A stretch of 64,000 nucleotides of DNA from positions 1 through 64,000 of the forward strand of contig NZ_LQBK01000023.1 of the NCBI RefSeq assembly GCF_001483755.1. The letters run 5' to 3'. This document shows positions 3,004 to 24,547 of the stretch, piece after piece; position 1 is the first letter of the stretch; every line of letters starts with the position of its first letter. A model generated the notes under the pieces. It searched no databases. It was not told where the DNA came from and worked only from the letters and a program-made list of their open reading frames with translations. Source of the stretch: Kocuria rosea subsp. polaris (lineage in GTDB: Bacteria; Actinomycetota; Actinomycetes; Actinomycetales; Micrococcaceae). Both the position numbers and the translations under genes were made by a program.

Positions 3004-4002
3004 TCAGACCGTGATGACCACCTTGCCCCGCACCTGACCCGACTCGAGTCGGGTGATCGCCTCGGCGGCGCGCTCGAGCGGGAACACCTTGTCGACGACG
3101 GGCACGACCTCGCCCGCATCGATGCGCCGCGTCAGCTCGGCGAGGTCGCCGCCGTTCCTCCTGGCAGCCAGCGGACGCAGCCGCTGCGACACGAACAACG
3201 ACATGGTCGATGCGCGGATGATGCGACCGACCGGGCCGAACACCTTCCCTCCCTTTCCGGCTGCGACCAAGAGCGTTCCGTGCCGGGTGAGTGAGCGACG
3301 CAACCGTCCGAGGGGGTGGTCGGCGACGAGGTCGAAGATCACGGCGTAGCGACCTCCGCCGGCGGTGAAGTCCTCGCTGGTGTGGTCGATGACGTGGTCG
3401 GCGCCGATCGCACGCACGTGGTCGGCCTTCGCGGCGCGACAGACACCCGTCACCTCGGCGCCCATCGCCTTCGCGAGCTGCACGGCGAATCCGCCGACGC
3501 CGCCGGAGGCGCCGTTCACGAGCACGTGCTGCCCGGGAGCAACGCCTGCCAGCCTGAGTCCTTGGAGCGCGGTGGTCCCCGAGACCGGCACGGCCGAGGC
3601 GTGAACGGCGTCCACGGTCGTCGGGCGCAGCGCGACGAACCGTTCCTGCACCGCGGCGAACTCCGCGTACCCGCCCTGGTTCGACTCCGCGTACACCGCG
3701 TCGCCGACGCGGAAGCGGGTCACCTGCGCACCGACCGCCGCGACTACGCCCGCGACGTCCCGGCCGATGGTCGGTTGCCTGGGCCGCCGGAGCCCGAATG
3801 CGAGGCGGACCATCCGTGGCTCGCCATGCATCAACAGGATGTCGCCGGCGTTGACCCCGACTGCGCCCAACCGGATGAGCACCTCGTCGTCGCCGGTCAC
3901 CGGCGTCTCGACCTCGGCGAGCGAGAGCACCTCGGTCCCGCCGTATCGCAGTTGGGTGATGGCCCTCATCGTTTTGCGCGGATGCTGAGTGCGTGTGTTC
4001 AT
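3004..4002 (-). CDS. NAD(P)-dependent alcohol dehydrogenase / quinone-oxidoreductase-like MDR protein
   Basis: A 332-residue medium-chain dehydrogenase/reductase. It has the N-terminal GroES-like fold (DDEVLIRLGAVGVNAGDI, about residues 38-55), the Rossmann motif NGASGGVGG at 163-171, and the closing motif of the quinone-oxidoreductase group (PLERAAEAITRLESGQVRGKVVITV-type end). No structural or catalytic zinc cysteines are present, so it is a zinc-independent NADPH:quinone or enone reductase type. Its substrate is unknown. The ATG at 4002 has GGAG 7 nt upstream. A paralogue with the same C-terminal signature lies at 22759..23793. Confidence 0.85.
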   Translation of the reverse strand: MNTRTQHPRKTMRAITQLRYGGTEVLSLAEVETPVTGDDEVLIRLGAVGVNAGDILLMHGEPRMVRLAFGLRRPRQPTIGRDVAGVVAAVGAQVTRFRVGDAVYAESNQGGYAEFAAVQERFVALRPTTVDAVHASAVPVSGTTALQGLRLAGVAPGQHVLVNGASGGVGGFAVQLAKAMGAEVTGVCRAAKADHVRAIGADHVIDHTSEDFTAGGGRYAVIFDLVADHPLGRLRRSLTRHGTLLVAAGKGGKVFGPVGRIIRASTMSLFVSQRLRPLAARRNGGDLAELTRRIDAGEVVPVVDKVFPLERAAEAITRLESGQVRGKVVITV

Positions 4003-4064
4003 GGCGTTCTCCAGTCTCGGTCGGTTCAGGGGCATCGCCGGAGGGTTCCAGGGTGCAGTCCCGG

Positions 4065-4300
4065 TCAAGAGCGAGCTGTGACCGACGCCCTCTGCCGCCG
4101 CATCGAGTGCACGATGACGACCGGGAGCGGCGCGACCAGGACGATCGCCTTGGCGCCGAGGACCGGGATCCGGGCCGGGACTGCCGCGAACGTGGAGCGG
4201 ATCATGGTGGCGTATTCGCCGGTGATGGACAGGCCGCCCAGGACGGCGATGGCCGGCGTGCCCGTCGTGGCGGGTCGGTGCGGCGGACGACGACGTTGCC
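4065..4300 (-). pseudogene. possible remnant of a membrane-protein gene
   Basis: One minus-strand frame ends in a protein-like stretch: TPAIAVLGGLSITGEYATMI, then IPVLGAKAIVLVAPLPVVIV, then a basic tail and a stop at 4065. Upstream the frame decays into arginine/proline-rich nonsense. The stretch looks like the last membrane helix of a lost gene. The rest of 4003-4485 shows no gene. I cannot assign a family. Confidence 0.25.
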
Positions 4301-4485
4301 GCGCTGGGGGCCGGTGTCGACGATGCGGGGGCTCTGCGTGCGCGTCCGATGACCTGACCTGCCGGTGGGGGCCTTGGAAGGCCCCCACGCGACGTCTCAG
4401 TGGTGGTTGGTGTCCCACTGCCAGGAGGCCCGCTCCGCGGCACCGAAGCAGATGGCTCCGAACAGGACGGGAACCGTTCTTGGGT

Positions 4486-5104: not shown

Positions 5105-5773
5105 ATGACGCGACGCACACCATTGAGCAGGGAGAGGATCATCGACGCCGCCGCCGCGGTCGCCGACCGCGCGGGTGTCGCCGCCGTGAGCATGCGCAGT
5201 GTCGCGAAGGCGCTCGGCGTCGAGGCTATGTCGCTCTACCATCACGTCCCCAGCAAGGAGGCGCTGCTCGACGACCTCGCCGACTGGGTGTTCGAGAGGA
5301 TCGAACTGCCCCAGGTCGGCGCGACCTGGCGGGAGGCGCTGACCGGCCGGGCACGATCGGCACGGTCGGTGCTCACCGCTCATCCGTGGGCGCTCGGGAT
5401 GATGGAGTCGCGCCCCAACCCCGGCCCAGCGCTGCTGCAGCACCACGACCGTCTCCTCGGCGTGCTGATGGCCGAGGGCTTCAGCGCCGCGCTCGCAACA
5501 CACGCGTTCTCCGCGATCGACGCCTACGTGTACGGGTTCGCGCTGACCTGGACGAGCCTGCCGTTCGAACCGGGGGACGGCGCCGAGGAGGCGTTCGCCG
5601 TCAAGGTCGGGGCGTCGGCGGAGCTGTATCCGCACATTGCGCGCTCGCGTGCCGAGCTGCTGGGCGATGGCGTCTACGCGTTCGCGGACGAGTTCGACTA
5701 CGGGTTGGAGCTGCTGCTGGAGAGCCTGGAGCGTCGGGTCGCCGACGAGAGCCCCACGCTTCGCGGGCGTTAG
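5105..5773 (+). CDS. TetR-family transcriptional regulator (TetR_C type)
   Basis: A 222-residue repressor. The N-terminal helix-turn-helix (SRERIIDAAAAVADRAGVAA, then SMRSVAKALGVEAMSLYHHV, about residues 7-50) is typical of the TetR class whose C-terminal ligand domain is TetR_C (HPWALGMMESR, HAFSAIDAYVYGFAL). AAGGA lies 8 nt before the ATG at 5105. It is divergent from a DUF6326 gene across two perfect mirror palindromes, and 17 nt upstream of an MDR oxidoreductase gene on the same strand that it very likely co-controls. The inducer is unknown; the enzyme type suggests an electrophile or quinone. Confidence 0.9.
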   Translation: MTRRTPLSRERIIDAAAAVADRAGVAAVSMRSVAKALGVEAMSLYHHVPSKEALLDDLADWVFERIELPQVGATWREALTGRARSARSVLTAHPWALGMMESRPNPGPALLQHHDRLLGVLMAEGFSAALATHAFSAIDAYVYGFALTWTSLPFEPGDGAEEAFAVKVGASAELYPHIARSRAELLGDGVYAFADEFDYGLELLLESLERRVADESPTLRGR

Positions 5774-5790
5774 CGCATGGTCGTGCGGGC

Positions 5791-6756
5791 ATGAGAGCGA
5801 TCGTCCATGACCGCTACGGCTCGCCCGATGTTCTGCGGCTCGCCGACATCGCCACGCCGACGCCGGGAAGAGGCCAGGTGCTCGTGCGGGTGATCGCGAC
5901 CTCGGTCAATCTGAGCGATTGGGAGGGGCTGCACGGGGCGCCCGCCTATGCCCGACTCGGCGGCCTGTTCAGACCCGCCCGCCGCACGCTCGGTTCGGAC
6001 ATCGCGGGAGTGGTCCAGGCAGTGGGCGCAGGGGTCACGCTGTTCCGGCCCGGTGACAATGTCTACGGCGACAATCTCACGCTGAAAGGCGGCTTCGCGG
6101 AGTACGCCGTGGCGCCCGAGCACGCTCTCGCGCTCAAGCCGGCCGGACTGTCGTTCGCCGAGGCGTCGACACTGCCGCAGTCGGGGGCGATCGCGGTGCA
6201 AGCAGTTGCGCGCGCGAAGCCCGGTGAGCGGATGCTGATCAACGGCGCCGGCGGAGGAACGGGGGCGTTCGCGCTCCAGCTCGCCGCTGCTTCCGGCATC
6301 CATGTCACCGCCGTCGACAACGCCGGCAAGCTCGACTTCATGCGATCCCTGGGGGCCGCCGAGGTCATCGACTACCGCACCGACGACTTCACGCGCACCG
6401 GTCCGTACGACCTCATCATCGACCTCGCCGCCCGGCGGTCGGTGTTCGCGTATCGCCGTGCGCTCGCCCCCGGTGGCACCTGCCTGATCGTCGGCGGGAC
6501 GACGCGCGCCCTGCTGCGGGTGGTGACGGTAGGCACACTGATCGGCACGATGACGGGTCGGCGGCTGGGGGTTCTCGCCGTCAAGCCGGGTCCGGCGCAC
6601 TTCTCGCCTCTTGCCGACCGATGCATCGCGGGAGACGTCCGTATCCACATCGACCGCGTGTTCCCACTCGAGCAGGTGCCCGAAGCGCTCACCTACGTCG
6701 GTGACGGCCACGCGCTCGGCAAAGTGGTGGTCGAGGCGCGGGCAGGTGTCGACTGA
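5791..6756 (+). CDS. NAD(P)-dependent MDR oxidoreductase (zinc-less)
   Basis: A 321-residue medium-chain reductase. N-terminal GroES-like domain (GQVLVRVIATSVNLSDWEGL), cofactor loop NGAGGGTGAF at 151-160, and a C-terminal signature RVFPLEQVPEALTYVGDGHALGKVVV. There are no zinc-binding cysteine quartets. It starts 17 nt after the TetR gene stop, so the two form one operon; it probably reduces a quinone or alpha,beta-unsaturated carbonyl sensed by that TetR. It is more distant from the two other MDR proteins of this window than they are from each other, judged by the closing motif. Confidence 0.85.
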   Translation: MRAIVHDRYGSPDVLRLADIATPTPGRGQVLVRVIATSVNLSDWEGLHGAPAYARLGGLFRPARRTLGSDIAGVVQAVGAGVTLFRPGDNVYGDNLTLKGGFAEYAVAPEHALALKPAGLSFAEASTLPQSGAIAVQAVARAKPGERMLINGAGGGTGAFALQLAAASGIHVTAVDNAGKLDFMRSLGAAEVIDYRTDDFTRTGPYDLIIDLAARRSVFAYRRALAPGGTCLIVGGTTRALLRVVTVGTLIGTMTGRRLGVLAVKPGPAHFSPLADRCIAGDVRIHIDRVFPLEQVPEALTYVGDGHALGKVVVEARAGVD

Positions 6757-10817: not shown

Positions 10818-11270
10818 TCAATGGACGGGGGCGGCCCCGATGGTGACGGGCTGGGGCCCGGAGCAGCAGGCATCGGCAGGCTCTTTCGTGGCATCCGGGG
10901 CGCAGCAGCCCTGCTCCGCGGCACCCGGGGCCGGGAGGTCGCAGGAGCCGCCCAGGTCGGTGGAGCACACCCCGGTCTCCGGCAGCACGAGCTGCACGTC
11001 GTCGGCCGCGGTGCGGTCCCCGGCCAGGGCGGCGGCGCATCCGGTGCCGGCGGCTGTGATGGCGTGGCGGTTGCGGTGGTCCACCGCGTCCCCGCAGGAG
11101 AAGACCCCGAGCAGGTTGGTGACGGTGGTGGGGGAGTCCACCGTGATGCAGCCCTCGCCGTCCAGCTTCAGCTGGTCCTTGACGAGTTCGGTGCGCGGGG
11201 TGTGGCCGATGACCACGAACACCCCGGCGGCCAGTTGGCGAGAGGCCCCGGTGGTGGTGTCCGTGGTCAT
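10818..11270 (-). CDS. truncated thioredoxin-reductase C-terminal domain with cysteine-rich tail
   Basis: A 150-residue protein whose first half matches only the last part of thioredoxin reductase (GVFVVIGHTPRTELVKDQL, VDSPTTVTNLLGVFSCGDAV, HAITAAGTGCAAAL). The N-terminal FAD motif and the CxxC redox centre are absent, so it cannot be a working TrxB. The tail carries seven cysteines including two vicinal pairs (CSTD..GSC..GCCAPD..ACCSG). It starts 14 nt after the arsC1 stop. Full-length trxB is known as an ars-operon partner, so this is either an internal deletion product or a repurposed thiol protein that binds As(III). The open frame is intact with its own start. Confidence 0.75.
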   Translation of the reverse strand: MTTDTTTGASRQLAAGVFVVIGHTPRTELVKDQLKLDGEGCITVDSPTTVTNLLGVFSCGDAVDHRNRHAITAAGTGCAAALAGDRTAADDVQLVLPETGVCSTDLGGSCDLPAPGAAEQGCCAPDATKEPADACCSGPQPVTIGAAPVH

Positions 11271-11284
11271 GACCGTTCCCGTCC

Positions 11285-11758
11285 TTACTGGGTGGCGGTG
11301 GTGTCGTCGGCGGGCAGCAGCTCGGAGATCAGCGCCTGGATGCGGGCCTTGATCTCGTCGCGGATGGGCCGCACGGACTCCACGCCCTTGCCGGCAGGGT
11401 CCTCCAGCTTCCAGTCCTCGTAGCGCTTGCCCGGGTAGAACGGGCAGGCGTCCCCGCAGCCCATGGTGATCACCACGTCGGAGTCCTGCACCGCCTCGTC
11501 GGTGAGGATCTTCGGGGTCTGGGCGCTCATGTCGATGCCCTCCTCGGCCATGGCCTCCACGGCGGCCGGGTTCACCGCGTCGGCCGGGGCGGAGCCGGCC
11601 GAGCGCACCTCGATGCGCCCGCCGGAGAGGTGGGTGAGGTAGGCGGCGGCCATCTGGGACCGGCCGGCGTTGTGCACGCACACGAACAGGACGGAGGGCT
11701 TGTCCGTGGTCTCGGCCGGGGTCGTGGAGGTGGTCTCGGGGGTGGTCTCAGCACTCAT
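11285..11758 (-). CDS. arsC: arsenate reductase ArsC (LMW-PTP fold)
   Basis: A 157-residue arsenate reductase of the low-molecular-weight phosphatase fold. P-loop CVHNAGRS with nucleophile Cys27 and Arg33 (C-x5-R), and two further cysteines, Cys101 and Cys105, in GCGDACPFYPGK for the disulfide cascade used by thioredoxin- or mycothiol-coupled ArsC. The N-terminus is a Thr/Pro/Glu-rich extension of about 20 residues. It reduces As(V) to As(III) for Acr3. It lies between the arsC-like gene and trxB' in the minus-strand operon. Confidence 0.93.
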   Translation of the reverse strand: MSAETTPETTSTTPAETTDKPSVLFVCVHNAGRSQMAAAYLTHLSGGRIEVRSAGSAPADAVNPAAVEAMAEEGIDMSAQTPKILTDEAVQDSDVVITMGCGDACPFYPGKRYEDWKLEDPAGKGVESVRPIRDEIKARIQALISELLPADDTTATQ

Positions 11759-11814
11759 CGGGATCGTCCGTTCTGTCGCAACGAAAAGAGGGGGGGGAGG
11801 GGGAGGGGCGGCGC

Positions 11815-12252
11815 TCAGGAGGGGCTGCCGTCGGTGAGCTCGGTGAGCAGTTGCTGCACCCGGGTGTCGATGTCGTCGCGGACCAGGCGCATCCGCTCCG
11901 CGCCCTCGATCCCGCGTTCCGACGGCTCGTCGGTGTGCCAGGTCTCGATGGTGCCGGTCATGCCTTCGACCGGCTCGACCTTCGCCTCGTCACCGAGCAC
12001 GACGACGCGGTCCACGGATCGCAGCAGCTCCGGGTCGATCGGCGTGGGGTGTCCTCGCGACATGTCGGCACCGAGCTCGGCGACGACCTCGGCGGACAGG
12101 GCGTTGATGTTGGTACCCGGTGTGGTGCCGGCGGAGTGGACCTCCACGGCACCTGCGGCGCGCTCGTCCATGAGGGCGGCGGCCATCTGGGACTTGCCGC
12201 CGTTCTTGGCGCAGACGAACAGAACGGAGGGCTTGGTGGTCTCGGTGCTCAA
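11815..12252 (-). CDS. second ArsC-like reductase with C-x5-K signature
   Basis: A 145-residue LMW-PTP-fold protein. The catalytic loop reads CAKNGGKS: nucleophile Cys14 and Lys20 where Arg is usual. Variants with NGGKSQMAA are found in mycothiol/mycoredoxin-dependent arsenate reductases of corynebacteria and relatives, so it is probably active. The GCGDAC disulfide loop of ArsC1 is missing, and GDEAKVEPV sits there instead. I prefer the TTG at 12252 because AGGAG lies 6 nt upstream; a GTG at 12303 would overlap the acr3 end. It follows acr3 by 25 nt. Confidence 0.82.
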
Positions 12253-12277
12253 CTGGTGCTCCTGGAAGGTCGCGGGG

Positions 12278-13372
12278 TCAGCGGGTGGGGACGGTGTGGT
12301 CACCGGGGAAGAGCTTCCGCCCGGCCCACAGGGACACGTAGACCAGCGCGACCAGGACGGGGACCTCGATGAGCGGGCCGACCACCCCGGCCAGGGCCTG
12401 GCCGGAAGTGACCCCGAAGGTGCCGATGGCCACGGCGATGGCGAGCTCGAAGTTGTTTCCGGCGGCGGTGAAGGCCACGGTCGTGGACCTCGCGTAGTTC
12501 AGGCCCAGGGCGCGGGAGGCGAGCAGGCCGATGCCGAACATGAGGAAGAAGTACACCAGCAGCGGCCAGGCGATGCGCACCACGTCCCAGGGGTTGGAGG
12601 TGATCGCGTCCCCCTGCAGGGCGAAGAGCAGCACGATGGTGAACAGCAGCCCGTACAGGGCCCAGGGGCCGAGCTTGGGCAGGAACGTGCCCTCGTACCA
12701 GTCGCGGCCCTTGGCCTTCTCGCCGAGGGTGCGGGTGAGGAACCCGGCGACCAGCGGGATCCCGAGGAACACGAGCACGGAGACGACGATGGACCACACG
12801 GAGAACTCCGCGGAGGTGGTGGGCAGGCCCAGCCAGGACGGGAGGACCTGGAGGTAGAACCAGCCCAGGGCGCCGAAGGCGATGACCTGGAACACCGAGT
12901 TGATCGCGACCAGCACGGCGGCCGCTTCCCGGTCGCCGCAGGCCAGATCATTCCAGATCAGGACCATGGCGATGCAGCGGGCGAGGCCCACGATGATCAG
13001 CCCGGTGCGGTACTCGGGCAGGTCGGGGAGGAAGATCCAGGCCAGGGCGAACATCAGCGCGGGCCCGACGATCCAGTTCAGCACCAGCGAGGCCCCCATG
13101 AGGCGGCGGTCGCCGGCCACGCGGTGGGTCTCGTCGTAGCGGACCTTGGCCAGGACGGGGTACATCATCACCAGCAGCCCGATCGCGATGGGCAGTGACA
13201 CCTCACCGATCTTCACGGCCTCCAGGGCGGTGTTCAGCCCTGGGACGAAGCGGCCCAGCAGCAGCCCGGCGACCATGGCGGCGATGATCCAGGCGGGCAG
13301 CCAGCGGTCGAGGAAGGACAGGTCCTTCATCACCCCCTGGTGGGCGGCGGGGGCGGTGGTGGTGGTGCTCAT
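12278..13372 (-). CDS. acr3: Acr3 arsenite efflux permease
   Basis: A 364-residue ten-helix arsenite/H+ antiporter. Signature [20 protein letters not shown] with the essential Cys133, and the discontinuous-helix motif [18 protein letters not shown] with Glu309. It exports As(OH)3 formed by the downstream ArsC proteins. It is the first gene of the minus-strand ars operon, divergent from arsR2 across 85 bp that carry the 16-bp shared element (13393-13408). The ATG at 13372 is chosen because the longer frame to 13417 runs through the operator. Confidence 0.95.
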
Positions 13373-13392
13373 GATCAGGGGCAGCCCTTCGT

Positions 13393-13408
13393 ATCGACGA
13401 CGATCTAT
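13393..13408. promoter_or_regulatory. 16-bp element shared by both ars divergent promoters (copy 2)
   Basis: ATCGACGACGATCTAT, the exact reverse complement of 9090-9105. It lies 21-36 nt upstream of acr3. Together with GGTCAATGTAG at 13438-13448 in front of arsR2, it repeats the arrangement seen at cadI/arsR1. Confidence 0.6.
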
Positions 13409-13457
13409 CGGAAACACTAGGGGGTCACATCGATATTGGTCAATGTAGGATGGGGTG

Positions 13458-13829
13458 ATGACTCTCGCACCGGACCTCCATGCCGCCGCCGATCAGTGCG
13501 CTCCCAGCACCACGGGCACGGAGTGCTGCTCGCTGTCGAGCGGGCCCATGGCCGCCGATGACGCCCAGCGGATCGCCGGCCGGCTCAAGGCCCTGTCCGA
13601 CCCGACCCGCCTGCGGCTGCTCTCGCACGTGGCGGCGCAGGGGTGCGGTGCGGTCTGCGTGTGCGACCTGACCGCGGTGGTGGACATCAGCCAGCCCACC
13701 GTGAGCCACCACATGAAGAAGCTCGTCGACGCCGGGCTGCTCACCCGGGAGCAGCGGGGCAAGTGGGCCCACTACTCCGTGGTGCCCGAAGCCTTCGCCG
13801 AGCTCCGCTCCTTCCTCGACCTGCGCTGA
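13458..13829 (+). CDS. arsR: ArsR/SmtB-family repressor (arsR2)
   Basis: A 123-residue winged-helix repressor. Recognition helix SQPTVSHHMKKLVDAGLL (78-95), wing RGKWAHYSV, and a sensor region with Cys63, Cys67 and Cys69 (GCGAVCVCDL). The N-terminus has three more cysteines (Cys14, Cys23, Cys24), as in the actinobacterial ArsR type that binds As(III) with N-terminal and helix cysteines. Divergent from acr3, it should repress the efflux operon. The ATG at 13458 follows AGGATGGGG. Confidence 0.92.
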   Translation: MTLAPDLHAAADQCAPSTTGTECCSLSSGPMAADDAQRIAGRLKALSDPTRLRLLSHVAAQGCGAVCVCDLTAVVDISQPTVSHHMKKLVDAGLLTREQRGKWAHYSVVPEAFAELRSFLDLR

Positions 13830-16198: not shown

Positions 16199-17185
16199 TC
16201 AGGGCTGGGAGGCGTGCCGCTCGAGGACGTCGGGCAGTTTCGGGACGGTGGCGATGACGGCGTCGCGGATCTTCCAGTCCAGGCCCAGCAGTCCGGTCCG
16301 GGCCGCGTCCAGCCGTTCGGGGGTCGCGGTCTCCAGGGGCTCGGGCACCACGAAGCCTTCGACGTGGAAGACCTGGCCCTCGTCCCGGACCCGGGCCCCG
16401 GCGGTGCGCACCCAGTCCAGCGACCGCAGGTACGCGTCGATCTCGCCCAGCAACGGGTGCGGGTCCTGGTTGTCGATGCTGGTGGGGCGGGCGTCGATCA
16501 GTCCGGCCACCGCGGCCTTCAGGTTGGTGATGCCGTCCTTGAGGATCGAGGTGGCGACCACGATCGCGGCCGCGGCGTCGGCCCACCACCACCCCAGGCC
16601 GATCCCGGCCACGCCCACCAGCACGGCCAGGGAGGTCATCCAGTCGGCCTTGTTCATGTCCGCGTCGGCGTAGAGGACCTTGTTGTGTAGCGGCGGGGCG
16701 AGCTTGAGCTTCATCCGCCCCAGGATCACCGGGGGGACCGCAGTGATCACCATCGCGGCCATCATCAGCCAGCCCAGCCAGATCGTGGTGCCGAAGAGCT
16801 GGATCCCGCCGATGGTGGGGTGCTCGGCGGTGATCAGCTTCAGGGCGGAGTCCACGATGAGGTACCCGCCCATCATGACCAGGGCGGTCGAGGCGACCAC
16901 GTGGGAGATGCCGATGGCCCGGTGGTAGCCGAAGGGGCGTTCGGCGGTGGCCGGCTTCCGGGTGACGTGCACCCCGATCAGGAAGGCGATCGGGGGGATG
17001 AAGGAGAGCATGTCCTCGATCCAGGCGGTCTTCATCGCCTGGGAGTTGCCCAGCACGAGGTAGACCAGTCCCACGATGACCACCAGGGCGGCGATGGTGA
17101 TCCACTCCAGCCGCACCGCCCTGCGCAGGTGCCCGGCGATCTCCTCGGGGAGGGGCTCGTCGTCGACATTGTGGCGGGCTGCCAT
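16199..17185 (-). CDS. cation diffusion facilitator (CDF) transporter
   Basis: A 328-residue protein with six predicted helices (about residues 27-47, 59-78, 97-119, 131-152, 185-203 and 208-225) and a cytosolic C-terminal domain (DPHPLLGEIDAYLRSLDWVRTAG). YADADMNKADWMTSLAV is the CDF second metal-site helix, and WIEDMLSFIPPIAFL is a degenerate first site. It would export Zn, Co, Fe or a similar divalent ion. Its start overlaps the stop of the upstream solute-binding lipoprotein by one base (TGATG), implying coupled translation. Confidence 0.8.
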   Translation of the reverse strand: MAARHNVDDEPLPEEIAGHLRRAVRLEWITIAALVVIVGLVYLVLGNSQAMKTAWIEDMLSFIPPIAFLIGVHVTRKPATAERPFGYHRAIGISHVVASTALVMMGGYLIVDSALKLITAEHPTIGGIQLFGTTIWLGWLMMAAMVITAVPPVILGRMKLKLAPPLHNKVLYADADMNKADWMTSLAVLVGVAGIGLGWWWADAAAAIVVATSILKDGITNLKAAVAGLIDARPTSIDNQDPHPLLGEIDAYLRSLDWVRTAGARVRDEGQVFHVEGFVVPEPLETATPERLDAARTGLLGLDWKIRDAVIATVPKLPDVLERHASQP

Positions 17186-17670
17186 CACGGCTGCCCTGCC
17201 TGATCGTGAAGGAACCGGTCGAGGTCCAGCAGGAACGCGTTCTCGCCCTTGCGCACGGCCATCACGTGCTTCTCCTTCTGCCCGAACTCGTCGGTGGTCT
17301 GCGTGTAGGGGCGGGTGAGCCCGACCTTCTTCTTCCACGGGGTCTTGTCGGTGAGCCCGCCGATCATCATGTCGAGCCGGCCGTGCTCGAGCTGGTCCAC
17401 CAGCTCCTCCTCCCCGTCGGCGGTCCATACCACCTCGGCGTCCAGGGTCCGCGCGTAGTCCTCCACCAGGGCCACCTCGCGCCCGGACGGGGATGGGCCC
17501 TCCACGGACACGAAGGGCTCGTTGTGCGAGATCCCGACCCGCAGCACGGTACCGCTGACCCGCTCCAGCGTCCGGTGCGGATCGGCCGGATAAGGGCCCG
17601 CGCACCCGGCGAGCAGAAGCCCCAGGATCGCACCGACCCCAACGATCAGTGACCTGATGATCGGACTCAT
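17185..17670 (-). CDS. solute-binding-protein-like lipoprotein (short)
   Basis: A 161-residue lipoprotein with signal IIRSLIVGVGAILGLLLAGC (lipobox LAGC). The mature part resembles one lobe of family-3 solute-binding proteins: LRVGISHNEPFVSVEG, LVEDYARTLDAEVVW, LEHGRLDMMIGGLTDKTPWKK, VGLTRPYTQT. At 161 residues it is shorter than the usual 230 or more, so lobe 2 is incomplete. No ABC permease is adjacent; the overlapping CDF gene suggests a surface sensor or metal handling. TACCGT lies 6 nt before the ATG (17677-17682), giving a leaderless promoter that could serve both genes. Confidence 0.7.
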   Translation of the reverse strand: MSPIIRSLIVGVGAILGLLLAGCAGPYPADPHRTLERVSGTVLRVGISHNEPFVSVEGPSPSGREVALVEDYARTLDAEVVWTADGEEELVDQLEHGRLDMMIGGLTDKTPWKKKVGLTRPYTQTTDEFGQKEKHVMAVRKGENAFLLDLDRFLHDQAGQP

Positions 17671-17676
17671 GGCACC

Positions 17677-17682
17677 ACGGTA
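17677..17682 (-). promoter_or_regulatory. -10 hexamer TACCGT (leaderless start)
   Basis: On the minus strand TACCGT is followed by GGTGCC and the ATG of the lipoprotein gene. It falls in the 96-bp gap after the helical protein gene, so the lipoprotein-CDF pair may be transcribed separately. Confidence 0.45.
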
Positions 17683-17766
17683 GACCTGTTCGAGGCGGAT
17701 TGTCCCGTCCGGAGGGACCGGCAGTCTTCGGACTCTCGCAGTGCCGCCGGTGGGTCCTGCCACCAG

Positions 17767-18249
17767 TCAGCTGACGAGGATCTGGGTGGAGTTGACCTTG
17801 AGCATGGCGTTGGCCCAGCGGACCTGGCGCAGGGTGTCGGGGTGGCAGCGCTGGGTGACGTCGAGCAGGTCGTGGTGCTTGATGCCCTGGGCGGCCTGCG
17901 CGAGCATCTCCCAGTCGGCCGAGACCCCGGAGGCCATGGTGTAGACCTCTCGCAGGTCGATGAGCATCAGCAGCGCGGCGTGACTGCGCCGGCCGATGAG
18001 CTCGCTGCTCTTCTCCCGCAGCTTCTCCGTGAGGCCGGGCTCGCCTTCGGGTTCCGGGTCGAGGTCCTGGCCGTAGTGCCGGCCGATCTCGGCAATCTCC
18101 CGAACGTGGTGCTGGGACCAGCGGGCGAGATCTCGGCCCAGGTGGTAGATCTCGTGGTCGACCTTGTGGCGTTCGGAGACGTGCAGCAGCTTCTGCGCCA
18201 GGTCGTTCTCGGAGCGGTGGAGTTCGTGCAGGACCAGGCCGATCTTCAT
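17767..18249 (-). CDS. predicted all-helical protein, partner of molybdopterin oxidoreductase
   Basis: Not a family I can name with confidence. The 160 residues are largely amphipathic helix with many His/Glu/Asp (ELHRSENDLAQKLLHVSERH, EIYHLGRDLARWSQHHVREI), reminiscent of ferritin-like four-helix bundles, and AMLKVNSTQILVS at the end. It overlaps the preceding molybdoenzyme gene by 4 nt (ATGA), so the two are translationally coupled and probably functionally linked, for example as chaperone, subunit or redox partner. Confidence 0.75.
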   Translation of the reverse strand: MKIGLVLHELHRSENDLAQKLLHVSERHKVDHEIYHLGRDLARWSQHHVREIAEIGRHYGQDLDPEPEGEPGLTEKLREKSSELIGRRSHAALLMLIDLREVYTMASGVSADWEMLAQAAQGIKHHDLLDVTQRCHPDTLRQVRWANAMLKVNSTQILVS

Positions 18250-20711
18250 CGCAGTGCCTCCGCGGTGGTGTCGTGGACATTCTCATCGGCTGCTGCCGAG
18301 GGGTTGCCGGCGGTGCGGTGACCCACGTCGGACACTGGGGCCGAGGCCGTGGTGGTCGGGGCCCGGGAGGGGCCCTCGGCCGCGGCGATCTTGGTGATCC
18401 TGGCGGCGGCGGTCTTGAAGATCGGCTGCTTGGAGGCCGCGTCCCAGTCGGTGATGGTCAGCTCGTTGGCCGCCCGCCCGGCCTTGCCGGGCTCGTGCCC
18501 CCTCTTGGTGTCCCAGTATCCGTAGTGGAAGGGCAGGAACAGCACCCCGGTGCGGATCTCGGTGATCCGCGCCGTGGCCTGCACCGATCCCCTCGGGGTG
18601 CTGATCTGGGTCAGGTCGCCCTCGCTGATGCCGGTGGCGGCGGCGTCACCGGCGGAGAGCTCCACCCACACTTCCGGGGCGGCGTCCTGCAGCTGCGGCG
18701 CGCGGGCGGTCTTGGTGCGGGTGTGGAAGTGGTAGAGGGTGCGCCCGGTGATCAGCTGCAACGGGAACTCCTGGCTGGGCATCTCGTGGGGCGGCAGGTA
18801 CTCGGCGGCCTTGAGCATCGCTTTGCCCGACGGGTTCAGTGCTTTGTACTCGGCCGGCTCCAGCGGTGCGCCGGTGACCAGGTCCCGGCCGTAGCTCTCG
18901 CAGTACTCCGGATCGGACCAGAACGCCCCGTCGACGTAGATGTGTTCAGAACCATCGGGGTGCTCGTCGTTGCAGGGCCACTGGATGCCGGAGCCGCCGC
19001 GCAGCTTGTCGTAGCTGAGACCGGTGTAGTCGCAGGGCCGTCCACGGGTGCACTCCTTCCAGGCCTCGAAGGCCGATTCGGGGTCGTGCCACTTGATCAG
19101 CGGCTCCCCGTCCTTGTCCTTCAGGCCGAGGCGGTGGGCGTAGTCGAGGAAGATGTCCAGGTCCGGTCTCGCCTCCCCGGGCGGGTCCACGGCTTTCTCC
19201 GACAGGTGCACGGTGCGGTCCACGTTGGTGAAGGTCCCGGTCTTCTCGCCCCAGGTCGCCGCCGGCAGCACCACGTCGGCCAGCTGGGCGGTCTCGGACA
19301 GGAAGATGTCCTGGACCACCAGGAACAACCGCTTCTGCTGCAGGATCGAACGGATCCGGGCCAGCTCCGGCAAGGACACGGCAGGGTTGGTGCCGCTGAC
19401 CCAGAGCATGCGGATGGAGCCGTCCTCGACGTAGCGCATCATCTGCATCACGTGGGTGGGCGGGGAGTAGTGCGGGATCTGGAACGGTTCGACGTTCCAC
19501 ACCTTGGCGAGATCTGCGACGTGGGCGTCGTTGGACCAGTTGCGGAATGCGGGGAGGTCGCCGTCGCCGCCGCATTCGCGAGTGTTCTGGGCGGTGGGCT
19601 GACCGTTCATCTGCAGGATCCCGCAACCAGGTCTGCCGAGCATGCCGCGGATGATGTTGACGTTGTTCACCTGCACCGCTGCGGCGGTGGCCTGGTGGGA
19701 CTGGTAGAAGCCCTGCAGCACGGTGGACAGCAACCGCTGGGCACCTCCGATGATGCGGGCGGCTTCCCTGATCTGCTCGGCAGGAACGTCGCAGATCGTG
19801 GCCACGGCCTCCGGGGTGTACTCCTGCACCCTCTTCTCGAGCTCGGCGTAGCCCACGGCGTGGGCGTCGATGTAGTCGTGGTCGACCCAGTCGTGGGTGA
19901 TGATCTCGTGCAGCAACCCGTTCATGAGGGCGACGTTGGTGCCCGGGCGCGGGGCCAGGTGCACGGTGGCGTGCCGGGCGACCGGGGTGGGCCGGGGGTC
20001 CACGCAGATGACCTGCGGTGGATTGGGCCCGGCCAGGCGGTCCAGCACGCGCATCCACAGCACGGACTGGGTCTCGGCCATGTTGTGCCCGTACAGGGCG
20101 ATGACGTCGGCGTGGTCGATGTCGGTGTAGGAACCGGGCTGGCCGTCGGAGGCGAAGGACTCCTTCAGCGCGGCGGCGGCGGTGGCAGTGCACAGCCGGG
20201 TGTTGCCGTCCACGTGGTTGGTGCCCAGTCCGCCGTGGGCGAGGACACCCAGGGTGTAGTACTCCTCGGCGAAGAGCTGGCCGGTGGTGTAGAAGCCGAT
20301 CGCGCTGGCACCCTGTTCCTCCAGCAGATCCTGGGTGCGTCCCACGATCCGGTCCATGGCGGTGTCCCAGTCGGTCTCCACGAGCTTGCCACCCTTGCGG
20401 ACCAGCGGCCTGGTCAACCGGTCGCCGGAGGCGTTGGCCTGCCACCCGTAGAGATCCTTCACGCCCAGGCGCCCGTGGTTGACCCGGTCCACGGCCCGGC
20501 CCCGGACCCCGGCGATCTTTCCGTCCTTGACCCCGATGTCGAGAGCATCACCGTTGGAGTGCAGGATCGAAGCGGTCTGCACCCATCGGTCCATGTCCTC
20601 GGGGCCCAGCCCCTCGGCCAGGTGCGTGTCGACCCGCACCGGCCAGTCCTCCCCGGCGGCGTAGGGGGTTCGGGCGCCCCACGGTTCAGCGATCCGGTCC
20701 TTGCTCGTCAT
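18246..20711 (-). CDS. molybdopterin oxidoreductase lacking N-terminal Fe-S cysteines
   Basis: An 821-residue protein of the Mo-bisMGD (DMSO reductase/Nas/Nap/Fdh) superfamily: FYTTGQLFAEEYYTLG, HVDGNTRLCTATAAAALKESF (Cys174 is the likely Mo ligand), DVIALYGHNMAETQ, MLWVSGTNPAVS, DVVLPAATWGEKTGTFTN, and a C-terminal MGD domain ITGRTLYHFHTRTKT. The usual N-terminal CxxCxxxC and GRLCVK cysteines of the [4Fe-4S] cluster are missing: the region reads RWVQTASILHSNGDAL and GRLGVKDLYGW, and Cys174 is the first cysteine. Electron transfer must therefore differ from Nas/Nap. GGAGGGG precedes the ATG at 20711. Followed by the helical protein gene. Confidence 0.85.
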   Translation of the reverse strand: MTSKDRIAEPWGARTPYAAGEDWPVRVDTHLAEGLGPEDMDRWVQTASILHSNGDALDIGVKDGKIAGVRGRAVDRVNHGRLGVKDLYGWQANASGDRLTRPLVRKGGKLVETDWDTAMDRIVGRTQDLLEEQGASAIGFYTTGQLFAEEYYTLGVLAHGGLGTNHVDGNTRLCTATAAAALKESFASDGQPGSYTDIDHADVIALYGHNMAETQSVLWMRVLDRLAGPNPPQVICVDPRPTPVARHATVHLAPRPGTNVALMNGLLHEIITHDWVDHDYIDAHAVGYAELEKRVQEYTPEAVATICDVPAEQIREAARIIGGAQRLLSTVLQGFYQSHQATAAAVQVNNVNIIRGMLGRPGCGILQMNGQPTAQNTRECGGDGDLPAFRNWSNDAHVADLAKVWNVEPFQIPHYSPPTHVMQMMRYVEDGSIRMLWVSGTNPAVSLPELARIRSILQQKRLFLVVQDIFLSETAQLADVVLPAATWGEKTGTFTNVDRTVHLSEKAVDPPGEARPDLDIFLDYAHRLGLKDKDGEPLIKWHDPESAFEAWKECTRGRPCDYTGLSYDKLRGGSGIQWPCNDEHPDGSEHIYVDGAFWSDPEYCESYGRDLVTGAPLEPAEYKALNPSGKAMLKAAEYLPPHEMPSQEFPLQLITGRTLYHFHTRTKTARAPQLQDAAPEVWVELSAGDAAATGISEGDLTQISTPRGSVQATARITEIRTGVLFLPFHYGYWDTKRGHEPGKAGRAANELTITDWDAASKQPIFKTAAARITKIAAAEGPSRAPTTTASAPVSDVGHRTAGNPSAAADENVHDTTAEALR

Positions 20712-22758: not shown

Positions 22759-23793
22759 TCAGACGGTGATGGCGATCTTTCCTCGCACTTGACCGGCCTC
22801 GAGTCGTGCCATGGCCTCAGCAGCCTGTTCCAACGGGTAGGTGCCGTCGACGTGCGGAGTCACTCGACCGGCCTCGATGAGCTCGGTGAGCCGTTGGAGG
22901 CCTGCGGTGCGGGTGGTGGACACGACGTTGGTGAACCGCTGGCCCACGAACGGGGAGAGGGCTGCTGCGCGCAGGGTCCGTCCCATGCCACCGGTGAGGC
23001 GGTCGCCCTCCTCCCCGCCCACGAGCACGGCCGTTCCGGTCGGTGCCAGGGCCCGGCGCAGCCGGGACAGCGGTGGGTTGCCGGCCAGGTCCAGGACGAG
23101 GTCGTAGTGGTGGGTTCCGTCGGCGAAGTCCTCGCGGGTGCGGTCGATGACGTGGTCCGCGCCCAGGGAGCGGACGTGGTCGACCGTGGCGGTGCTGGTC
23201 ACGGCGGTGACGTCTGCCCCGAAGGCCTTGGCCAGTTGCACGGCGTAGGACCCGACTCCGCCGGAGGCCCCGGTGATCAGCACCGTCTGCCCTGCCCGCA
23301 GGCGTCCGGCCCGTCCCAGGGCCTGCAGGGCGGTGGCTGCGGAGACCGGCACCACCGCCGCCTGCTCGGCGGTCAGGCTCCCCGGTGCGGGGGCGAGCTG
23401 ATCGGCCCGGGCCACGGCGTACTCGGCGAAAGAGCCGCGGGCTGCCCCGTACACCTCCTGCCCGACGGAGAGGCCGGTGACGGCGGCGCCGAGGGCCACG
23501 ACCGTGCCAGCGACTTCCATCCCGGCCACCGGGTTCCTCGGTGCCCGCAGCCCGAAGCCCAGGCGCAACAGGTAGGGCCGGCCCGTCATCAGGTGCCAGG
23601 TGCCCCGGTCCAGACCGGCCGCGCGCACGCGCAGGAGCACCTCCTTCTTGCCGGGCTCGGGCACCGGTATCCGTGCCAGGTGCAGGACCTCGGCAGGGCC
23701 GTACCTGTCGCGCACCACCGCGCGCATCGTGCTGTCCGGGGTGGGACCGGTCGTGCCCTGGCCCTCCACGGTGTGGTGTTCCTCAGCGGCCAT
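22759..23793 (-). CDS. NAD(P)-dependent alcohol dehydrogenase / quinone-oxidoreductase-like MDR protein
   Basis: A 344-residue zinc-less medium-chain reductase. GroES-like domain (KEVLLRVRAAGLDRGTWHLM), GMEVAGTVVALG, cofactor loop TGASGGVGSYAVQLAKAFGA (174-193), and the closing motif YPLEQAAEAMARLEAGQVRG. It is a paralogue of 3004..4002 with the same arrangement of blocks and an almost identical C-terminal ending. GAGGAG lies upstream of the ATG at 23793. The N-terminus carries about 20 extra residues relative to the paralogue's core. Confidence 0.85.
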   Translation of the reverse strand: MAAEEHHTVEGQGTTGPTPDSTMRAVVRDRYGPAEVLHLARIPVPEPGKKEVLLRVRAAGLDRGTWHLMTGRPYLLRLGFGLRAPRNPVAGMEVAGTVVALGAAVTGLSVGQEVYGAARGSFAEYAVARADQLAPAPGSLTAEQAAVVPVSAATALQALGRAGRLRAGQTVLITGASGGVGSYAVQLAKAFGADVTAVTSTATVDHVRSLGADHVIDRTREDFADGTHHYDLVLDLAGNPPLSRLRRALAPTGTAVLVGGEEGDRLTGGMGRTLRAAALSPFVGQRFTNVVSTTRTAGLQRLTELIEAGRVTPHVDGTYPLEQAAEAMARLEAGQVRGKIAITV

Positions 23794-23869
23794 GATGGTG
23801 CTCCTCTCCGGACCGGGTCCGGTCGGTGCCCGGGAGGGAACCCGGGGGCGAATCTGTGGACAGGTCTCC

Positions 23870-24176
23870 CCGCCGAGCCCAGGACGAGGATCTGGCCCAG
23901 GTGCTCGCCCAGCAGGGCCCCGTCGACCTGGTGCTGGGCAGTCCGGGCGGCCTCCACCGCGGTGCCGGTGGCGGAATCCCCCGGAGCGCAGATGGTGGCC
24001 AGGGGGACCACGAACACCCAGCGCAGGAACCCGATCACCGACGGCGCCGTGGCCGCGACGGCGAAGGCCAGGGCGCCGGGGACGGTTCCGGCTCTGCCGG
24101 TGCCCTTTCCTCCACGTTGCCGGGGAAACCACCCGATGCCGACGGTCGGAGCGGTCGGCTCGATCTGAGTTCCCAT
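23870..24176 (-). pseudogene. possible truncated DUF4386-like membrane protein
   Basis: A minus-strand frame from the ATG at 24176 reads as protein for about 100 codons: FAVAATAPSVIGFLRWVFVV, then EAARTAQHQVDGALLGEHLG. The LLGEHLGQIL block after a helix is reminiscent of DUF4386-like membrane proteins. It then degrades into Arg/Pro-rich sequence before the MDR gene. Probably a decayed or truncated neighbour of that MDR gene. The remainder of 23794-24547 holds an AT-rich spot (CTTTTATTAAGTG near 24211-24223) that may be a promoter. Confidence 0.3.
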
Positions 24177-24547
24177 GATCCGCCTGATGGCCGGCTCCGC
24201 ACCGGGACGGACCTTTTATTAAGTGTGCCGCCCGGTCGAGGCGGGTATCACCAGCTGGGTGCTCCTGCCGACACGAAGAAACCGAACGACCCATGCACCG
24301 GACAGTGGCCTCGCACTGCGTGCAACCTGCTCCGGCTCAGCAGGACTGCCATGCGACCCCCCTGTGATGCAACAGGGGGGGGTGGACCGTCCACTCGCCG
24401 GCCGGCGCGTGGGTCGCCGCGTCGGGGCACCGGACCCGGGGCCGGGTGCGGCGCCGTCGTCGGGCACTGTCCCGGGGCTTGGCATCCACGAGCCCGTGGG
24501 CGCATCCTGAAGCCAGGTCGACGGCGGGACTGGGGAGGCGGATTCCG

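Follow-up and report, generated by a model that had tools for sequence, protein, structure and literature searches.

In molybdenum enzymes of the NapA/NasC/FdhF clade, electrons usually travel through an Fe-S cluster beside the pterin. The locus described here encodes a predicted molybdenum enzyme without this usual iron-sulfur wiring, together with a small helical protein, and raises the testable question of how electrons would move in such a system. It lies in a 64,000-nucleotide stretch of Kocuria rosea subsp. polaris DNA (the window), in which the four open reading frames of the initial annotation were confirmed, all on the minus strand. The relevant features are the following.

18246..20711, minus strand: catalytic subunit, Mo-bisPGD-type oxidoreductase, 821 aa (ORF call; Pfam, NCBIfam and PDB matches)
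20547..20570, minus strand: former cluster loop, residues 48–55 (SILHSNGD), with Ser48, His51 and Asp55 where relatives have CX2CX3C (76-row alignment)
20454..20465, minus strand: residues 83–86 (GVKD), with Gly83 at the fourth cysteine position, the invariant Lys85, and Asp86 replacing Gly86 (76-row alignment)
20190..20192, minus strand: codon of Cys174, which is predicted to bind Mo and precedes Thr175 (all 64 classified family rows have Cys-Thr here)
17767..18249, minus strand: helical partner, 160 aa, possibly ferritin-like (ORF call, family alignment, profile searches)
17185..17670, minus strand: lipoprotein with one solute-binding lobe (SBP_bac_3), 161 aa (ORF call, Pfam)
16199..17185, minus strand: CDF cation-efflux transporter, 328 aa (ORF call, Pfam Cation_efflux)

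The enzyme and helical genes overlap by 4 nt (ATGA) and the lipoprotein and CDF genes by 1 nt, as initially described. A 96-nt gap lies between the helical and lipoprotein genes, so that the locus consists of two tight pairs and not of a single tight string of four. Promoter and terminator scans returned 0 and 1 candidates respectively, compared with 0.2 and 1.4 by chance.

The 821-aa enzyme matched PF00384 (Molybdopterin, 205.6 bits) and PF01568 (Molydop_binding, 95.1 bits) above cut-off, and its best PDB matches were 7qv7 FdhF (374.6 bits) and D. desulfuricans Nap (364.6 bits). Its cofactor domains are common to NapA/NasC/NarB and FdhF over almost the whole length, and Cys174 aligns with the Mo cysteine of Nap/Fdh. 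On the basis of these domains and of the residue at the Mo-ligand place, the enzyme is assigned by sequence to the DMSO reductase (Mo-bisPGD) family. Cys174 is indeed its first cysteine, since none precedes that column of the alignment in the window protein. No export signal was seen by eye, and MoaA and FdhD homologues are present in the window's genome.

All NCBIfam scores shown for this enzyme fall under the curated cut-offs, the best being Fdh-alpha (456.5 bits, cut-off 666.25) and NasC (415.1 bits, cut-off 1100). The residue that follows the Mo cysteine is Met in the Nap alignment and in 4/4 outgroup rows, and His in three FDH-type alignments. This Met has a functional role in NapA/NasC nitrate reductases, as has His after the Cys or Sec at Mo in FdhF formate dehydrogenases. 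The Cys-Thr motif found here differs from those of both nitrate (Cys-Met) and formate (Cys/Sec-His) enzymes, and the helical partner is a further difference from NapA/NasC/NarB and FdhF. A NapA/NasC identity was rejected because of Thr175 in place of Met, the absence of cysteines at the four-cysteine [4Fe-4S] site and the NasC and NAPA scores (the latter 301.8 bits, cut-off 930.55), and an FdhF identity because of Thr175 in place of His and the Fdh-alpha score. AioA was rejected on its score (155.2 bits, cut-off 359.05) and on the lack of cysteines at the cluster site. Given the Cys-Thr motif, the annotation as simply nitrate reductase, which the gene carries in 15 of the 20 plasmid records of the family, is not supported. 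TorA/DorA/BisC also belong to the DMSO reductase family and have no Fe-S cluster, but their Mo ligand is Ser instead of Cys, and the bisC_fam score was only 132 bits (cut-off 1017.55). DorA and TorA are monomeric Moco-only enzymes according to PMC10609526. M. smegmatis MSMEG_2237 (760 aa) and MSMEG_6816 (720 aa; PMC7816997) were considered as relatives and compared by length, in which both differ from the 821-aa enzyme.

The claim that the N-terminal cluster cysteines are missing was borne out: Ser, His, Asp and Gly occupy the four cysteine positions of the window protein, and the Fe4S4 domain scored 12.1 bits, below the cut-off of 22.7. In the 76-row alignment the site exists in three states, with four cysteines (4 outgroup rows), three (9 rows from five phyla) or none (55 actinobacterial rows); the 8 other rows, truncated or with a broken frame, were left unclassed (L009, L035, L036, L037, L103, L110, L111 and L118). 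All 55 cysteine-free rows have His51, Asp55 and Asp86, together with Ser, Thr or Ala at position 48. A screen for columns separating these rows from the three-cysteine rows (thresholds of at least 93% in the former and at least 75% in the latter) returned P10, H51, D55 and D86 only, position 48 (Ser in 50/55) having just missed the threshold. Cys174, Lys85 and Arg378 are invariant in the 64 rows of both classes. From the alignment, the cluster site looks rebuilt rather than merely lost.

On the full-length tree (63 rows), the cysteine-free state forms one clade (SH-aLRT 96), with long outgroup branches flagged. With the first 99 residues removed, the best trees (63 rows, or 62 with L040 also omitted) did not unite the cysteine-free rows, which grouped together in 0% of 200 bootstrap trees (63 rows). 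The AU test (62 rows) did not reject a single cysteine-free clade (p 0.517). The cysteine-free state may thus have had a single origin.

The three-cysteine rows have the cysteine spacing of arsenite oxidase (CX2CX3C and a non-Cys), which is the pattern of the AioA [3Fe-4S] site in PMC3758308 (2013). These members, which like AioA belong to the DMSO reductase family, would represent an additional [3Fe-4S] lineage. In contrast to the 821-aa enzyme with its predicted ligand Cys174, AioA binds Mo without a protein ligand, and it possesses a Rieske subunit (PMC3758308). The window protein has no cysteine at the AioA-type site. Such a widespread lineage with three living states of the cluster site allows the purpose of the cluster to be tested.

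The enzyme and the helical protein occur together in all 32 related loci and in 20/20 of the family's plasmid records. Of 28 sampled genomes with the enzyme, 25 have both proteins, and in Halomonas the two are naturally fused. The helical gene starts with [AG]TGA in 31/32 loci and the enzyme frame ends inside this overlap in 28/32 (counted by hand), indicating that the overlap is not due to chance. Judged by gene arrangement, the two proteins are a dedicated pair. No helical protein was read in the 1.4 kb downstream of the enzyme of the G197 member, and none is annotated beside the enzyme of a Staphylococcus relative. The same helical partner also accompanies the enzyme in three-cysteine members, so its origin is not simply that of a substitute for the cluster. 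As the initial annotation stated, no known electron-transfer subunit was recognised beside the pair; its view of an undescribed Fe-S-less molybdoenzyme with a helical partner also stands, no published description having been found in the literature searched.

The helical protein is rich in His and Glu (14 Glu and 13 His among 160 residues), as had been noted, and that of the window has no significant Pfam match. In the family alignment of 69 sequences (partial ones and L070/L153 omitted, L068 with an internal stop included), Glu14, His28, Asp31, His48 and Asp98 are candidate metal ligands. In place of Glu14, the Halomonas fusion has Ser and L119 has Val; 3/69 sequences have a residue other than His at position 28, and L070/L153 carry Asn instead of His48. 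Pfam scans of 16 members gave weak matches to DUF2383 (5/16, best E 0.0023) and DUF892 (1/16, E 0.007) as well as to scattered other families, and the PDB search gave weak matches to 3q4n, 3q4o and 2oh3 (whole-sequence E 0.0044, best single stretch E 0.2). With hhalign, the family reached 22–67% for DUF892, 0.7–6.3% for DUF2383 and 0.3% or less for 16 TorD-family sequences. Membership of the TorD/NarJ family was rejected on these hhalign values and on the absence of a PF02613 match in the Pfam scans of the 16 members, where HMMER filters drop most weak matches. Judged from these profiles, the helical protein looks weakly ferritin-like, and not TorD-like. It shares a weak, sub-threshold profile similarity with DUF892/YciF and DUF2383 proteins, which we take to be ferritin-like, but lacks their canonical ExxH motifs and, unlike them, is the partner of a molybdoenzyme.

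Our preferred reading, to which we give slightly less than an even chance, is a Mo-bisPGD enzyme of the NapA/NasC/FdhF clade that has two subunits, is probably cytoplasmic and passes electrons via the helical subunit; its substrate and electron route are what we infer from sequence. Mo bound by Cys174 would catalyse a two-electron conversion whose substrate is probably a small oxyanion of nitrogen, e.g. nitrate or nitrite. Electrons would bypass the N-terminal cluster route and pass through the docked helical subunit, a putative ferritin-like bundle whose conserved Glu, His and Asp would hold iron. Lys85, which would lie next to the pterin, and the rebuilt His51/Asp55/Asp86 site would perhaps aid electron transfer. 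In other lineages, HPP genes (in several of them) or formate/nitrite-transporter genes lie near the pair; HPP is linked to nitrite transport in PMC7438415, and these HPP neighbours hint at nitrite/nitrate chemistry. An HPP gene was found neither in the window nor in any of the 32 loci. The sub-threshold ferritin-like matches, the absence of the canonical ligand set and the Thr after the Mo cysteine, a difference from known nitrate enzymes, speak against the preferred reading.

Cluster-free TorA/DorA-type enzymes are thought to take electrons directly at the pterin edge. The enzyme could likewise accept electrons there from a small donor, the helical protein being a dedicated maturation chaperone, analogous to TorD/NarJ but of another fold, that aids Mo-cofactor insertion. 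We consider this rather unlikely. The conserved Glu/His/Asp pattern argues against it, as do the TorD comparisons above and the Halomonas fusion, although fused chaperone domains exist. Consistent with a chaperone, the helical protein is all-helical by sequence, the window's genome has no PF02613 match, and the helical gene adjoins the enzyme gene, as chaperone genes often do (PMC10609526). According to the same source, the NarG cluster ligands are required even for cofactor insertion, which cysteine changes block; a cluster-free enzyme may need help at this step.

It is also conceivable, but distinctly improbable, that a NapA/Fdh-type enzyme swapped its cluster for a non-sulfur metal at His51/Asp55/Asp86/Ser48. 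From there, electrons would run to a ferritin-like subunit carrying iron and might end on O2 or peroxide, resulting in an oxygen-proof Mo enzyme.

Acetylene hydratase and pyrogallol transhydroxylase perform Mo chemistry without net electron exchange. That the present enzyme does the same, with a rebuilt site that is structural, would agree with the missing cluster, the lack of a recognised donor subunit and a Cys-Thr motif unlike that of nitrate and formate enzymes. The metal-ligand-type residues of the partner and the HPP or formate/nitrite-transporter neighbours in other lineages argue against this reading, which is improbable.

The initial annotation had put all four genes forward as a candidate for an undescribed redox/metal system. 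Conserved neighbourhood in relatives, which it had named as a check, holds for the Fe-S-less enzyme with its helical partner, but not for the set of four. The lipoprotein (with a lipobox-like LLAGC seen by eye) and the CDF gene are adjacent in 13 of the 14 other genomes bearing the lipoprotein, 13 of which have no helical protein, G409 being the exception. Conversely, the 32 loci (10 of them less than 14 kb long) revealed no homologue of the lipoprotein close to the enzyme/helical pair, and their only match resembling the CDF gene, in L036, is a remote one at 29% identity. By gene content, lipoprotein and CDF are a separate neighbour module. A single four-gene system is very improbable, the common strand and short gaps in the window and the neighbouring modules in G409, about 390 bp apart but divergent, notwithstanding. 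Between the window and the 19.9-kb stretch of G409, alignment is restricted to the two modules and a region near 55.2–56.1 kb. Ars-like genes were read by eye among the ORFs at about 10.8–13.9 kb of the window, and an arsenic link was considered; the G409 stretch does not align with this region.

Finally, it is hardly credible that the enzyme is, like QrcB, a molybdopterin-fold protein that is in decay or has lost its catalytic activity: cluster ligands are lost and some relatives have broken frames (e.g. L011, L019, L036 and L037), but frames are mostly long and intact across many lineages, Cys174, Lys85 and Arg378 do not vary, an alignment of 19 relatives has hundreds of further invariant columns, and the residues substituting for the cluster ligands are themselves invariant.

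Four minus-strand genes were found in the window, as the initial annotation had claimed:
18246..20711, minus strand: P0001, 821-residue molybdopterin oxidoreductase
17767..18249, minus strand: P0002, 160-residue helical partner
17185..17670, minus strand: P0003, lipoprotein
16199..17185, minus strand: P0004, CDF transporter
The sequence also bore out its reading of Cys174 as the first cysteine of P0001. In Pfam, P0001 matched molybdopterin domains, the Fe4S4 domain falling below the cut-off, while P0003 matched SBP_bac_3 and P0004 Cation_efflux. Searched alone, P0002 matched nothing significantly in Pfam, NCBIfam or PDB.

Genome contigs were scanned with P0002, which yielded 32 loci, all actinobacterial by title (one, L009, is cut at a contig end, another, L037, is disrupted, and some frames are broken). 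A P0001 homologue adjoined P0002 in all 32; the P0002-type gene started with [AG]TGA in 31 and the end of the enzyme frame fell in that start overlap in 28. Since this set started from P0002, a reciprocal search from P0001 was added (E up to 1e-100). Homologues of at least 57% identity were present in 28 of 396 genomes of the phylum and, by coordinates, a P0002 match adjoined them in 25 of the 28. The exceptions were G141, whose match sits at the edge of a contig, G336, with a fragment that by the lengths seems to lie where a contig ends, and G197, where no P0002-like protein was read in the 1.4 kb downstream of the homologue. Four of the 29 genomes with a P0002 match had no P0001 row at this identity, namely G038 (a fragment interrupted by stops), G270 and G311 (where the match is short) and G363 (near a contig end).

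Twenty plasmid records, including Deinococcus, Hymenobacter, Halomonas, Vreelandella and Gloeothece, carried relatives at 52-78% identity to P0001. P0002 lay beside them by tblastn in 17; for L107, L111 and L118, the remaining records, its homologue was read directly downstream. Frames were broken in L110 and L111. In Halomonas sp. KO116 (L109:5989-8817) both proteins are annotated as a single 942-aa protein, adjoined by fdhD, fdhF and HPP, a neighbour gene in some lineages. A wide gap separates the family from other enzymes: the next plasmid protein, from Staphylococcus, stands at 42% identity, followed by others at ~34% or less, and the next genome proteins at 40% or less. This Staphylococcus saprophyticus relative (L112:5953-8379), possibly an early branch, has three cluster cysteines and no annotated P0002-like gene beside it. 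Judged by sequence, P0001 and P0002 form a two-protein variant of the NapA/Fdh clade that is conserved and almost never lacks its unfamiliar helical partner.

In relatives, the neighbourhood of the four genes held for P0001 and P0002 but not for P0003, which had a homologue in none of the 32 loci; a distant CDF-like match occurred in one. P0003 was searched in 59 genomes, the window's own among them (E below 1e-30), and was found in 14 others. A CDF gene adjoined it in 13 of the 14, the two lying on different contigs by coordinates in G425. With P0002 as query, only one of these 14 genomes, G409, gave a match; there the two modules are divergent and ~390 bp apart, and the DNA of a 19.9-kb G409 stretch resembles the window's over both modules and around 55.2-56.1 kb. 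Lipoprotein and CDF transporter make up a second, separate module. The one-lobe SBP_bac_3 lipoprotein and CDF transporter at 16199-17670 are themselves a conserved pair in relatives.

The residue following Cys174 is Thr in all 64 classified family rows and Met in the four outgroup rows; in PDB alignments, Nap has Met there and the formate-dehydrogenase type has His. Neither Arg378 nor Lys85 varies within the family, and both also occur in outgroup rows; MoaA and FdhD homologues were found in the window's genome. On these data, P0001 is likely a live Mo enzyme, but its active-site signature fits no known nitrate reductase and no formate dehydrogenase.

At the cluster site, the place of the N-terminal Fe-S cysteines in NapA/Fdh relatives, 76 rows were aligned, eight of which could not be classed. 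Four cysteines were found in 4 outgroup rows, CX2CX3C with Gly at the fourth place in 9 rows, and no cysteine in 55. In these 55, His51, Asp55 and Asp86 are invariant, position 48 is Ser (50), Ala (3) or Thr (2), and position 83 is Gly (38) or Asp (17). When columns were screened for different fixed residues in the 55 and the 9 rows, only P10, H51, D55 and D86 came out, position 48 falling short of the screen's 93% threshold. The site therefore seems to have been rebuilt under constraint instead of drifting freely. Sources of the rows with three cysteines are Staphylococcus, Deinococcus (2), Hymenobacter, Halomonas, Streptomyces, Curtobacterium and two genomes of the window's phylum. Their pattern resembles the [3Fe-4S] motif of AioA, Cys21-X2-Cys24-X3-Cys28-X70-Ser99 in PMC3758308, and these members would carry [3Fe-4S]. 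On the full-length tree, in which long outgroup branches were flagged, two changes suffice (four to three, then three to none); four are needed on trees that leave out the first 99 residues. In the latter, the cysteine-free rows formed one clade in 0 of 200 bootstrap trees, and the AU test did not reject such a clade (p 0.517), so that a single origin of the cysteine-free state is only possible. We infer that change ran from four cysteines to none.

Across 69 P0002 sequences, His48, Asp98, Gln118 and Asp or Glu31 occur in all 69, Glu14 in 67 (Ser in the Halomonas fusion, Val in L119) and His28 in 66 (deviating in L114, L119 and L068). Position 48 is Asn in L153, which is not among the 69. When 16 diverse members were scanned against Pfam, five matched DUF2383 (best E 0.0023), one matched DUF892 (E 0.007), and 13 other families each matched one member. 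Both DUF families are ferritin-like. A PDB profile search with the P0002 family returned three chains, two of MJ0754 (E 0.0044 and 0.0091 over the whole sequence, 0.2 for the best single stretch) and 2oh3 (0.41). In one-to-one profile comparisons, hhalign gave 22-67% for 15 DUF892 sequences (one run aligning only the second half of P0002 to the first half of DUF892), 0.7-6.3% for three DUF2383 sequences and 0.0-0.3% for 16 TorD sequences. A ferritin-like fold is the leading but unproven candidate. The reading that we favour, with slightly less than even confidence in the statement as a whole, is a NapA/Fdh-clade pair with a rebuilt site whose electron route would pass through the helical partner. 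Its main rival, in which the partner is a new type of maturation factor, is less likely.

Of 13 plasmid loci, 6 have an HPP gene close to the pair (L108, where it is apparently broken, L109, L110, L111, L115 and L117). So do 6 of 17 genome regions, with the gene five times directly beside P0002 and once ~3.4 kb off. It is directly downstream of the pair in L151, L158, L159, L162 and L163, regions of one actinobacterial family (f18) of the cysteine-free class; the 32 loci and the window yielded no HPP gene. One Deinococcus locus also holds a formate/nitrite transporter. PMC7438415, citing Maeda 2014, links HPP proteins of cyanobacteria and chloroplasts with the transport of nitrite. Nitrogen oxyanions are weakly favoured as substrate because of these neighbours.

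Genes or homologues of four-helix copper-binding proteins occur, in no fixed place, in five pair-holding loci:
L113:13883-14290
L114:3913-4314
L008:3898-4242
L024:426-752
L032:3630-3971

Elsewhere in the window, ORF reading gave an arsenic cluster at 10818-13829 (flavoprotein, arsenate-reductase-like proteins, ACR3-like transporter, ArsR-like regulator). Three ORFs spanning ~21 kb (3004-4443, 5386-6756 and 22759-24294) were read as related paralogues of alcohol dehydrogenase/quinone reductase type.
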